Positions 4,698 to 60,859 of a stretch of DNA of 64,000 nt are shown in pieces; the stretch's first letter is position 1, and the number at the start of each line of letters is the position of its first letter. Source of the stretch: an uncultured Gammaproteobacteria bacterium. Its GTDB lineage: Bacteria > Pseudomonadota > Gammaproteobacteria > Enterobacterales > Psychrobiaceae. Where the stretch lies: positions 1-64,000 of the forward strand of contig CAKZQF010000101.1 in the NCBI GenBank assembly GCA_937139475.1, given 5' to 3'. The notes below the pieces were generated by a model. The model saw only the letters and a list, made by a program, of their open reading frames with translations, was not told where the DNA came from and made no database searches. A program made the translations under genes and the position numbers.

Positions 4698-6831
4698 GAT
4701 CTTGAGCCTGTTTGCTTTGGATTGCAGTAAGAGCGATAGTGTATACGATATCATCCACTAATGCACCGCGAGAAAGATCATTTACTGGCTTACGCATACC
4801 TTGAAGCATAGGCCCGATACTGATTAGGTCTGCGCTTCGTTGCACCGCTTTGTAAGTGGTGTTACCAGTGTTTAGATCCGGAAAAATAAATACGTTTGCT
4901 TGGCCGGCGACAGGACTATTAGGCGCCTTACTTTTGGCGACGTTTTTCATCACCGCCGCATCGTATTGTAACGGTCCGTCAATGATAAGGTCAGGGCGTC
5001 GTTCTTGTGCTAGTTTTGTTGCTTCGCGTACTTTATCGACATCACTGCCTGTGCCCGAGGTGCCGGTAGAGTAACTGATCATTGCCACCTTCGGTGAAAT
5101 GCCAAACGCTAACGCTGAATCGGCCGATTGGATAGCTATTTCTGCCAGTTGCTGGGCACTTGGATCCGGGTTGATTGCACAATCACCATAAACCAGCACT
5201 TGGTCTGGTAGCAACATGAAGAACACTGATGAAACCAGACTAGAACCAGGTGCTGTCTTAACTAGCTGTAATGGCGGTCTGATAGTGTTTGCCGTGGTGT
5301 GAATAGCGCCCGAAACCAGGCCATCTACTTCACCTTGAGCTAACATCATGGTGCCTAAAACGACATTGTCTTCAAGCTGCTCCAGGGCAACGATATCAGT
5401 CAGCCCTTTATGCTCACGAAGTTTCACCATCGGTGCTACGTATTGTTCTCGTACGAGTTCAGGGTCAAGAATAGTAACCCCGGCACCAAGTTCTACGCCT
5501 TGTTGTTTTGCTGTTAATTCAATAGTTTGCGGATTACCAAGCAAAATACAATGTGCAATATTACGCTGGGCACAGATGGTAGCCGCTTTAATCGTACGAG
5601 GTTCTTCGCCTTCAGGCAGCACGACTGATTTTGCCGCTTTGCGTGCCATTTCTGTTAGTTGATAACGGAAGGCCGCAGGAGAAAGGCGGCGCTTTCTACC
5701 GCTTGCTTTGCTAAGCGAATTTATCCAGTGCTTATCGATATGACTTGCCATAAATTCCTGAACTTTACTAATTCTACCAGCGTCATCTTCTGGTACTTCA
5801 TGGTTAAAGCTTTGTAGGTCAATAGAGGTTTGCCAGGTGTTGGTTTCCACCAATAAAATAGGCAGCCCGGTATCCATCGCTTGTTGGCATAATTTTAACA
5901 CCGGTGGTTCTGGTTCATAGCCGTTGGTCAATAGCAGTGCGCCAATCTTAACGCCATTCATCGCCGCTAGGCAGGCGGCAACAATAACATCACTACGATC
6001 GCCTGAAGCGACGAGTAATTTGTCGGCACCAAAGTTTTCAACCATGTTGGGAATACTGCGTGCACAAAAGCTTATACTGCGTAATCGTCTGGTGTCTGTT
6101 TCCCCATGATTAATCAGTTTTGCTTTAAGGTGTGCGGCCAAATCGCTTACCCGCGGTGCTGTAATTGATTCGTTCCATGGAATGTAACCCAAGACCCGAA
6201 TAGGGCTGCGACCAAATAGCTGGAAAACTTCCATCTGGTTTTTATTGCTGGTTTTTGAGGTGCCAGCTAAATCAGGACGAATCACACCATTCTCATCTAT
6301 TGGTGCGTTAATTTGGTTAACAATACAGCCCAGGATCATTTCTGAATCTGTACCACCAAAGCTTTGGCAAGCAATCTCCAATCGTTCCTTTTGCTGTACG
6401 GCACTATCTGCCCCTGGCGAGGTGACAAAAATTACTTCAGCATCTAGTGCTTTTGCAATTTGGTTATTCAATCGCGCCGAATATTGCTGCTTACGCGTCG
6501 GGACGAGCCCTTCAATGACAAGGACATCATTGCCAGTAAGCGCCTCGTTGGCACGTTCTACGATTTCCTCTAGCAAGGTATCTGCTTTGTCGCTGCTCAC
6601 TAAATTTGCGACATATCCTTGCGTAAAAGATAAAGGTGGCTTGATATTGGGGTTTTGTCCAATGATCGCTGACGATCGTTCCGGGCCGTTATCGCCGTGG
6701 CTTGGCTGTGCCACAGGTTTGAAAAAGTTTACTTTAGTACCATGTCTTTCCAGCGCATGGACAATGCCCATACTTACCGATGTAAGTCCAACGCCGAAGC
6801 CTACTGGCACTAACATAATGGTTCTTGCCAT
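4687..6831 (-). CDS. pta: Phosphate acetyltransferase
   Basis: Pta interconverts acetyl-CoA and acetyl phosphate in the cytosol. At 714 residues this is the long three-part enzyme: an N-terminal P-loop-like domain (starts [20 protein letters not shown]), a central DRTGG regulatory domain (about 215-330), and the C-terminal catalytic PTA domain (from about 390, with [15 protein letters not shown] and GPLQYDAAV). The start is 2 bp past the ackA stop, so the two are one operon and their products make the Pta-AckA acetate pathway. The 3' end overlaps the start of the lipoprotein gene. Confidence 0.98.
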
Positions 6832-57213: not shown

Positions 57214-58524
57214 CTATTTCTTTCGCTTCATCGGAATGTGACCAACGTCAACTGCCTCAACAAATGATTTGTCTAGTTTCTTGTTTGGGGTTTTCTTAGT
57301 GGCTTTCTTTTTCGCTGTCACTTTTTTATGTTTTGTCGGATTGTATTTGGCTTTTGGCTTAGCTTTTGCGGGTTTTAAGCCCTTAAAGCGGGCGACCAGA
57401 CCTTCGAGTTCACTGAAGCTGAATTTTGTTTTTAATAGCAATTGAATGCGTTCTAGACTAGGCCAATCTTTCTTACTGACTAATGAAATAGCCAGACCAT
57501 CATTTCCAGCACGACCCGTTCTACCAATGCGGTGAATATAGTCTTCTGGGTGTTTAGGCAGGTCGAAATTGACTACATGACTGACATGTTTAATATCAAG
57601 CCCGCGCGCTGCTATATCTGTCGCTACTAACACCTTGCTTACAGTGCGCTTAAAATCATCCATAGCCTTATTACGTGCACTTTGAGCCATGTCACCATGC
57701 AACGCGCTAGCTGGTACATTATTTTCGGTGAGAAGGGCACTGAGGCGGTCACAGTCGACCTTTGTAGCGGTAAATATAAGCATTTGCTCAAATGGGCGCG
57801 AGCAGATTGCTTTTAACAAGCTTTCTTTGTGATCAAGGTGGTCAGCCAAGTAAACTTGCTGAGTAATATTCTGGTGCTTGTCAATTGCCCGACCAATCTC
57901 TATACGCTTGGCATCCTGTAACACTTCAACACTAAGGTTTTTAATCGCCTTATCATCAATGGTTGCCGAAAAAAGCATTGTTTGGCGTTTGCGGTGGTCT
58001 GCGGCTTTGTTGATGTGCCGTAGGGCCGTCGCAAAACCTAGATCGAGCATGCGGTCAGCTTCGTCCAGTACTAAAACTTCAAGTGCGTTTAGAAAGATAT
58101 GCCTATGTTCAAGGTGGTCACTAATCCGTCCAGGCGTGCCAATAATGATATCAGGCTCTTTTCGTAACACTTTCGCTTGGTCGTTAAATGATTCACCGCC
58201 AACAATTAAAGAAGCATTCAAACGACTTGCTCCAGTTAGTTTTTTGAAGTCTTGATAAACTTGCATCGCAAGCTCTCGGGTAGGGGCCAAAACCAGTGCT
58301 CTTGGGTCGCGTTTTGAAAATGCTTTTTGACGTAATAAGCGTTGCATAATTGGTAGCAAAAAAGCGATGGTTTTACCCGAACCTGTTTGCGACGATGCCA
58401 GGATATCTTTGCCAGCAATTGCCACTGGAATCGCCTCACTTTGGATGGGCGTTGCTTGGTGAAATCCCAAGTGTTCGAGTGAGGTGGTAAGACGTTTATC
58501 TAAACCAAAATTTGAAAATGACAA
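57214..58524 (-). CDS. DEAD-box RNA helicase (RhlE/SrmB-like)
   Basis: A 436-residue RNA helicase. Motifs: Q-motif ATPIQSEAIP, SSQTGSGKT, APTRELAMQ, GTPGRISDHLEH, DEADRMLDLGF, SAT, ATDIAARGLDI and HRIGRTGRAG. The core ends near residue 375. The last 60 residues are a very basic Lys-rich tail (KKVTAKKKATKKTPNKK), likely for RNA contact. It probably works in ribosome assembly or mRNA turnover. A TATAAT -10 is present on the minus strand at 58565-58560. Confidence 0.94.
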   Translation of the reverse strand: MSFSNFGLDKRLTTSLEHLGFHQATPIQSEAIPVAIAGKDILASSQTGSGKTIAFLLPIMQRLLRQKAFSKRDPRALVLAPTRELAMQVYQDFKKLTGASRLNASLIVGGESFNDQAKVLRKEPDIIIGTPGRISDHLEHRHIFLNALEVLVLDEADRMLDLGFATALRHINKAADHRKRQTMLFSATIDDKAIKNLSVEVLQDAKRIEIGRAIDKHQNITQQVYLADHLDHKESLLKAICSRPFEQMLIFTATKVDCDRLSALLTENNVPASALHGDMAQSARNKAMDDFKRTVSKVLVATDIAARGLDIKHVSHVVNFDLPKHPEDYIHRIGRTGRAGNDGLAISLVSKKDWPSLERIQLLLKTKFSFSELEGLVARFKGLKPAKAKPKAKYNPTKHKKVTAKKKATKKTPNKKLDKSFVEAVDVGHIPMKRKK

Positions 58525-58802
58525 GAAGGTTCCTAATCGGTCAATGTTAATTGACGGCCATTATAAATGGTGGCGTTGCTTAGCACCAACCTTATTGTCA
58601 ATTTAATTAGAGTAGGGCTCACAAATGAAGACCAGCTCGCAAAAATAAAGGTAAAAATAGCAGCGTTACACACCACTGGTGACACTGATTTGGCAATAGG
58701 GGTTATTTGGGTCTTGTGTCGCTGTATGCGCTGGCATGCCTGTTGATTGAGTTGGTTGGGTGTGCTACATTTGTGATGTGCAAGGTGTTTTTTGAGGCGA
58801 TT

Positions 58803-60005
58803 TTGAATATAAAGGAACGAATTAGCCAGGGGTTGTTTAGTTCACTTGGTAATGATGTCAAACGGGTCAATGATAGTCAATACATTGGCTTTCATGCCCG
58901 TTTGGGCAAACCAAAAGCCGATGGCTCTCGACTGATTAGCTACTATTATTTCTATCGAGTCGGTGGCCGAAATGGTAAGCAGGTAAATTATTTTATTGGC
59001 AATAGTGAACAAATGGATGCGGGGGTCGCCCGCCGGATCGCGATGAAAATTGAGCCGCATGTGAAGGCTGGAGAAGACTTGTTAAAGTTAAAATTTGAAG
59101 CTGAAAAAAAACATGTTCGGCTCAAAGATTTTTGGTCTTTTTGTGGTAAAGATTTCTTTGTAAGAAAGTATAAAAATTCACGTGATGCGATTCGTAATAT
59201 TGAGGCTGATGTACTGCCTCAACTTGGTAGTGTTACCCTAGATAAACTAAGTCAACATTTGATTGAGTTGCGCGTTTTTTCGCCGCTGATTAAACGAAGT
59301 AAAGTCAGCCAAATGAAAGTTGTAGCCAGTCAATTTAAAGTACTCTTACAGCATGCTGTAGAAAATGACTACCTAGCGAGCCAACCGATCAGGCAAACAA
59401 GTTTCAATACGACAAAACCAAATAATCGAACGAAGCCTGCGTTAGCAGAGTTGACCCTAAGTCCCGCGCAGATCAAAGGTATATATTACCGTGCGGCTAA
59501 ATCAGACAAAAATAATGCTTATCTTTATACCTTGCGAATTCAAATTTTGTCTGGCCAATCGCTTTCGACCATCCTAGCGAGCTATCGTCAGGATATTAAG
59601 GGAAATTATTGGTCGTTACGCGGGACTAATGGTAAATTAACAGGTAAAGTTATTCCTTTGCAGGGACCACTTAAGCTGTTGTTTAAAGATGTTTTGACCC
59701 GATTTCCAACACCAGAGAGTTTATTCTTGTTTCCAAGTAAAAGTGGACGCAAAGACGGGGAGGACGGTATGGACGCTCGTGCAGTAGCAAAAAGCCAGCA
59801 ACGCTTTATTGCCAATGTGCATGGCGAAACGCTTTCGATGAGCAAGCTAAGAAAGCAAATAGAGCAGGCAATGGTTAACATAGGCATCGATCCTTTGGTA
59901 GTCGCCTATTTATTTGATCGTAAAGTCGACGGTTATTTGCGCTTAACACCTAAAGATAAAGCCATTGAGCATGGGCTAAACCATTGGTACAACGGCAAGA
60001 TATAA
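58803..60005 (+). CDS. Tyrosine-recombinase-like protein lacking key catalytic residues
   Basis: A full-length frame with the layout of a P4-type integrase. The N-terminus resembles an arm-binding domain ([20 protein letters not shown] near residue 47), then comes a core-binding-like helical region (about 105-200) and a catalytic-like domain (about 220-400). In that domain box I reads LSGQSLSTI where integrases have TGQR-x-E, and box II reads MSKLRKQ where HxLRR is expected. The second Arg (350) and a possible Tyr (378) remain. TTG 58803 was chosen because GAGG lies 5 bases upstream; ATG 58776 or TTG 58707 are alternatives without a ribosome site. No att site, tRNA or cargo genes are seen. 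It is probably a domesticated or inactive recombinase relative; function unknown. Confidence 0.6.
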
Positions 60006-60040: not shown

Positions 60041-60859
60041 ATGAAACAACAGATCCTAAATGAAATGCAGGTACAGCCAACAATCGATGTAGGCTATGAA
60101 ATCAAACGCCGCATTGCGTTCATCCAATCAATGCTCACCGACAGTGGTGCAAAATCGTTAGTATTAGGTATCAGTGGTGGGATTGATTCAACGTTAACCG
60201 GCCGCTTAGCGCAGATGGCGGTGGATCAGCTAAATGAGCTAGCCAATGACACGGTTTATGCATTTTATGCCGTGCGCTTGCCCTACGGGGAGCAAAAAGA
60301 CGAAGATGAAGCGCAGATGGCACTGAGTTTTATTAAGCCAAGTCACGCGTTGACGGTGAATGTCAAAGCAGCAGCCGATGCAATTGATGAACAGGTTCAA
60401 GGTAACGGATTTGCTGTCAGTGAACATATCAATAAAGACTTTGTTAAAGGTAACGTCAAAGCGCGGATGCGCATGTCAGCCCAATATCATATTGCGGGAC
60501 TCACTGGCGGTTTAGTCATTGGTACAGATCATTCAGCGGAAAATATAACTGGCTTTTATACAAAGTTTGGTGATGGAGCCTGTGATTTAGCGCCGTTATT
60601 TGGCCTCAATAAGCGCCAGGTTAGGGCGTTAGCCAGTGAACTTGGAGCCCCGGATAGATTAGTTAAAAAGGCCCCGACCGCCGATCTTGAATGCGATAGT
60701 CCGCAGCTAACCGATGAAGCTGCGTTAGGCATGAGCTATGATCAAATAGACGATTTCCTGGAAGGCAAAGAAGTTCGTGCTGATGTTGAATCACGACTTA
60801 TATCGATTTATCAGCGTACCCAACATAAGCGCAAGCCAATCCCTACAATTTATGGCTAG
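60041..60859 (+). CDS. nadE: NH3-dependent NAD+ synthetase
   Basis: Final step of NAD synthesis: amidation of nicotinate adenine dinucleotide. 272 residues, the short form without a glutaminase domain (E. coli 275). The PP-loop is [17 protein letters not shown]; other conserved parts are [20 protein letters not shown] and [21 protein letters not shown] 60041 matches the family start ([10 protein letters not shown]). It begins 35 bp after the integrase-like gene. Confidence 0.97.

Follow-up and report, generated by a model that had tools for sequence, protein, structure and literature searches.

An integrase-derived gene beside nadE in Psychrobium that has lost its catalytic residues and may act as a DNA-binding regulator

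The window (the whole 64,000-nt stretch of DNA analysed) carries, most likely at 58803-60005 on the + strand, a gene derived from a P4-type tyrosine integrase. Its product is a full-length integrase by profile and fold, with arm, core-binding and catalytic domains, in which catalytic residues have been lost. The gene is kept under purifying selection at a fixed place beside nadE in Psychrobium. It is considered somewhat probable that the product has been domesticated and, no longer able to recombine DNA, serves as a DNA-binding regulator of its own promoter at least and perhaps of nadE too.

Coding sequence and gene neighbourhood

The original prediction described an intact frame at 58707-60005 with no stop or frameshift, and analysis of the window showed that this frame is indeed open. 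The TTG at 58707, which had been taken as its start, was not upheld. It lies upstream of a promoter-like conserved block (58762-58775), so the protein is likely to have 400 aa. The start that the family conserves falls at 58803, where the window has TTG; the orthologues have ATG or TTG in the matching place. Judged from the conserved start, the open frame and the orthologues in 7 other Psychrobium genomes, the coding sequence of the integrase-derived protein is most likely 58803-60005 (+), with a TTG start, the stop TAA (60003-60005) and a putative ribosome-binding site, GAGG (58794-58797, +), seen by inspection 5 nt before the start.

The gene nadE (60041-60859, +) lies 35 nt downstream on the same strand, with no terminator-like site found on the + strand between the two genes in the window. 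The constant upstream neighbour is a divergent DEAD-box RNA helicase gene (57214-58524, -). No tRNA was found in the 64,000-nt window and no RNA family at the locus.

Domain architecture and predicted fold

The three-part P4-integrase layout first read from the translation was recovered by family profile matches, profile-profile comparison and predicted folds. Phage_int_M was matched by all eight family members and Arm-DNA-bind_3 by 7 of the 8 (best E 7e-4, Pfam), in the order expected of P4-type integrases with an arm domain; this assignment holds for the family, and the window protein alone falls below the curated Pfam cut-off and barely scores in Pfam, NCBIfam or PHROGs. The profile of the 8 orthologues aligned over nearly its full length with a profile of 11 active integrases (hhalign, Prob 99.5, E 9e-23), and it matched 2kj5 at the core-binding domain (E 4e-5).

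Predicted folds matched lambda, HPI and Xer proteins, and the core-binding and catalytic-domain folds place the protein in the tyrosine recombinase superfamily. The arm-type DNA-binding domain (residues ~1-90; 58803-59072, +) resembles the HPI integrase arm domain 3jtz (Z 9.7, rmsd 2.0 over 75 residues). The core-binding, SAM-like domain (residues ~98-200; 59094-59402, +) resembles lambda Int 2oxo (Z 13.6, rmsd 1.5 over 90 residues), and the catalytic-fold domain, which lacks a working active site (residues ~217-400; 59451-60002, +), resembles the lambda catalytic core 1ae9 (Z 11.0, rmsd 3.7 over 152 residues) and was also delimited by profile alignment. The DNA-bound phi3T protein 9rd5 (SroF, by title) was in the fold list with Z 10.2. 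AlphaFold2 run on an orthologue-only alignment predicted the N-terminal half confidently and the catalytic domain weakly, with lambda integrase as the top fold match. The mean pLDDT was 80.5 once the sister integrases had joined the alignment, and that model depends in part on the integrase alignment, since active integrases are in its input.

The arm-domain hairpins carry insertions of 5 and 3 residues in all eight orthologues (alignment A4 columns 41-57; about 58920-58975 of the window), which are absent from the active sister integrases. As read from the alignment, these insertions possibly alter DNA specificity.

Catalytic residues

Residue positions were taken from hhalign, as MAFFT misplaces the Arg I region relative to the sister integrases. 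The first catalytic Arg, the His and the His/Trp position had been listed as not conserved, and all three losses stood up to profile or family alignment. The Arg I position (59559-59561, +) is Ser253 in the window and S, D or T among the orthologues (Ser in L014 by alignment reading), the box II His position (59841-59843, +) is Ser347 (S, T or R), and the His/Trp position (59916-59918, +) is Asp372 (H, N or D). Arg II (59850-59852, +) was not among the losses first listed; the window does retain it as Arg350, yet it is Leu in the 7 other intact orthologues. The hairpin Lys278 (59634-59636, +) is retained in 8 of 8, and Tyr378 (59934-59936, +), a putative remnant of the nucleophile, is Tyr in 7 of 8, being missing only in L018. 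The loop before Tyr378 is 4 residues shorter than in active integrases.

None of the eight intact copies thus has Arg I or the His, and seven of them lack Arg II; no orthologue recovers a full R-H-R-Y set or has the R-K-H-R-(H/W)-Y set of a functional tyrosine recombinase, while all 11 sister integrases have 6 of 6 catalytic residues. An active integrase was rejected on this loss. The locus also lacks the surroundings of a mobile element, with core genes on both sides in congeners, no tRNA in the window and no cargo; a short degenerate att relic is possible. Some DNA chemistry might persist through the invariant Lys and the Tyr in an unusual active site, but this is highly improbable given the losses of Arg I, His and Arg II, the loss of Tyr in L018 and the shortened loop. 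MrpR, a catalytically dead tyrosine recombinase, retains Lys and Tyr too, with its catalytic Arg and His replaced, and is nevertheless concluded to have lost recombinase function (PMC10516654).

Distribution and synteny

Orthologues beside nadE were found in 8 of the 9 other Psychrobium genomes (placed under Shewanellaceae by NCBI), of which 7 are intact, with 49-59% identity to the window protein, and one is decayed. In the ninth, G003, the contig starts inside nadE and does not reach the site. Where both flanks are assembled, the site invariably has the divergent DEAD-box helicase gene on one side and nadE on the other, and nadE follows 18-90 nt after the gene on the same strand across the Psychrobium loci. 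The decayed copy, in G005 (L019, about 5080-5680, -), carries deletions and several stops, with the helicase and nadE genes on either side of it intact; this independent loss shows that the gene is dispensable. The gene tree is broadly compatible with the nadE and helicase trees, the clade of L013, L015, L016 and L017 being present in all three, and deep branches of these trees are poorly supported. An unusually long intergenic region of about 730 nt was seen upstream of the orthologue in G002 (L014, 6224-6952).

When genome contigs were queried with the alignment, the matching contigs were named Psychrobium; a single-sequence query found none. Among 395 sampled genomes of the order and 369 of the class, no further orthologue was found; the remaining matches were weak, and the matches within the order whose full sequences were inspected were ordinary integrases. 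None was found in phage records, plasmids or viral contigs, where two Vibrio plasmid integrases matched the N-terminal 120 residues only.

Selection

For the closest pair, L013/L015, dN was 0.107 and dS 1.27, giving an omega of 0.084, indicative of purifying selection, with 0.079 for nadE and 0.077 for the helicase in the same pair. The whole-gene Fisher p was 5e-63, and the arm, core-binding and catalytic domains were each constrained, the linker alone being free. For distant pairs the synonymous sites are saturated, and the ratios are indicative only. In neutral simulation at dS 1.27, about 19 in-frame stops were expected, with a minimum of 8 in 200 simulations.

These figures bear on whether the gene is a functionless relic that decays slowly and is kept by chance. 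The pseudogene in G005 would suit such a relic, as would the protein's faster evolution than its neighbours (dN about twice that of nadE). The absence of any stop in 8 lineages despite saturated synonymous sites, against about 19 expected under neutrality, and the closest-pair omega with its Fisher p make it scarcely credible. A recent island or prophage remnant was rejected on synteny and selection.

Upstream element

A 14-nt block, GTGCTACAYTTGTG, is common to 7 orthologous loci at 39-51 nt upstream of the start. It is the sole exact copy in each of the 7 genomes and was absent from 30 shuffles. The window version, GTGCTACATTTGTG (58762-58775, +), contains an extended -10-like sequence, TGC-TACATT, so the block may serve as a promoter, as an operator or as both. 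Degraded versions occur in G004, where the gene is intact, and at the pseudogene locus of G005. No regulon with this motif upstream was seen, as no genome has a second exact copy and one-mismatch matches were near control levels; the one-mismatch match in G003 adjoins other genes and was set aside as unrelated. Direct repeats considered as arm sites were short, at chance level and not common between species, and were rejected. An inverted near-copy of the block, TCACAAATGAAG / CTACATTTGTGA (58619-58630 and 58765-58776, 134 nt apart), is present in the window only and may be due to chance.

Three other roles can be weighed against this element. The gene could be maintained not for its protein but solely because it carries, or is coupled to, the promoter and transcript of nadE, for example through translational coupling or as a leader. 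That it always sits immediately before nadE, with short gaps, agrees with this, as does a promoter-like element conserved before the gene with none conserved before nadE, but such a function needs no folded integrase and would leave the constraint on the protein over its whole length unaccounted for, which makes it very unlikely.

Arm-type integrases bridge and bend DNA, as is established for lambda Int, and the three retained DNA-binding modules would also suit an architectural protein that bends, loops or organises the chromosome near the locus with no gene-specific regulation. A single conserved site per genome, and a single-copy gene whose fixed context suggests a local role, speak against this, and it is judged distinctly unlikely.

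The protein could instead be a dead partner or decoy which binds att sites or co-assembles with incoming or resident integrases and so blocks or tunes the integration of related elements. This would agree with the loss of catalytic residues from a protein whose DNA-binding domains all persist under constraint, and with the finding that other families of the order have active relatives belonging to the same subgroup. No close active kin were found in the Psychrobium genomes, however, where the other integrases match weakly and are of a different subgroup. There was also no meaningful match to PADLOC models, and the single conserved site is in the gene's own promoter. A decoy is therefore held to be fairly improbable.

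Proposed role and relation to known systems

The original prediction that the gene has been kept for a role other than recombination is supported by the orthologues beside nadE, the purifying selection and the missing R-H-R-Y set. In the proposed regulator, a P4-type phage or island integrase would have become fixed here in the Psychrobium ancestor, after which the mobile element would have gone and recombination been lost. The protein would have been maintained as a sequence-specific DNA-binding regulator, retaining all three DNA-contacting domains. We infer that it may bind the conserved element at 58762-58775 as an operator in its own promoter and thereby repress or tune its own transcription. 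Because nadE is within 18-90 nt on the same strand, it is possibly co-regulated, and its transcription might be affected as well.

Several findings weigh against a regulator. The block may be merely an unusually constrained promoter and start region, its lack of a second genomic copy gives no sign of a regulon, and it is degraded in G004 despite the intact gene. The gene is dispensable, its adjacency to nadE may be passive, and its dN is the higher by the factor given above. The confident structure model used active integrases, whereas the orthologue-only model has a weak catalytic domain.

A bolder version, in which the dead recombinase would be a chromosomal transcription factor over an operon with nadE and hence a genus-specific regulator of NAD synthesis, is considered somewhat unlikely. 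Replacement of the NAD regulator NrtR was rejected as a rationale, since most sampled families of the order lack NrtR just as Psychrobium does, and its absence therefore carries no weight. In L031 (2510-3238) and L033 (2561-3250), from another family of the order, the neighbour divergent from nadE is a gene resembling NrtR, which is a regulator of the Nudix type.

The closest relatives found are P4-type phage and island integrases of the FHDLRHHFASKL subgroup (e.g. L058 and L068), near full-length homologues with the same domain order. They differ in keeping all six catalytic residues and in their varying genomic location, and have about 22% identity to the window protein. The function had been called undescribed, which is partly tempered by MrpR (YopR), a catalytically dead tyrosine recombinase that is the master repressor of the Bacillus subtilis prophage SPbeta (PMC10516654). 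The Psychrobium protein shares with it the recombinase fold and a similar residue pattern, with Arg and His lost, and its proposed role as a DNA-binding repressor is that of MrpR; the resemblance put forward is one of function and carries no claim of common descent. MrpR is a Firmicute prophage gene that controls lysogeny through many SPBRE sites (PMC10516654), whereas the Psychrobium gene is chromosomal, belongs to a Gammaproteobacterium, has a P4-type arm domain and a single conserved upstream site, and has no prophage around it.

The integrase IntS of the KplE1 prophage represses its own promoter through binding sites that overlap it (PMC2951348), and such self-repression is the proposed ancestral mode for the Psychrobium gene, although IntS actively recombines DNA and has both att sites and a directionality factor (PMC2951348). 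With MrpR and IntS as precedents, each half of the mechanism, a dead-recombinase repressor and repression of the own promoter, is plausible. Domesticated Crypton-derived genes are mobile-element tyrosine recombinases that became host genes; they are eukaryotic and of another recombinase lineage (PMC3212892).

Few dead recombinases are known as regulators, mainly MrpR inside a prophage, and the MrpR paper suggests that tyrosine recombinases may have been recruited as transcription factors more widely than has been supposed (PMC10516654). If the proposed role is true, the Psychrobium gene would add a case from the chromosome of a Gammaproteobacterium, one whose phylogenetic record of orthologues, loss and active sisters is clear, so that the step from an enzyme of a mobile element to a regulator of the host could be tested by experiment. 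Genes annotated as integrases that adjoin core genes need not mark mobile elements.
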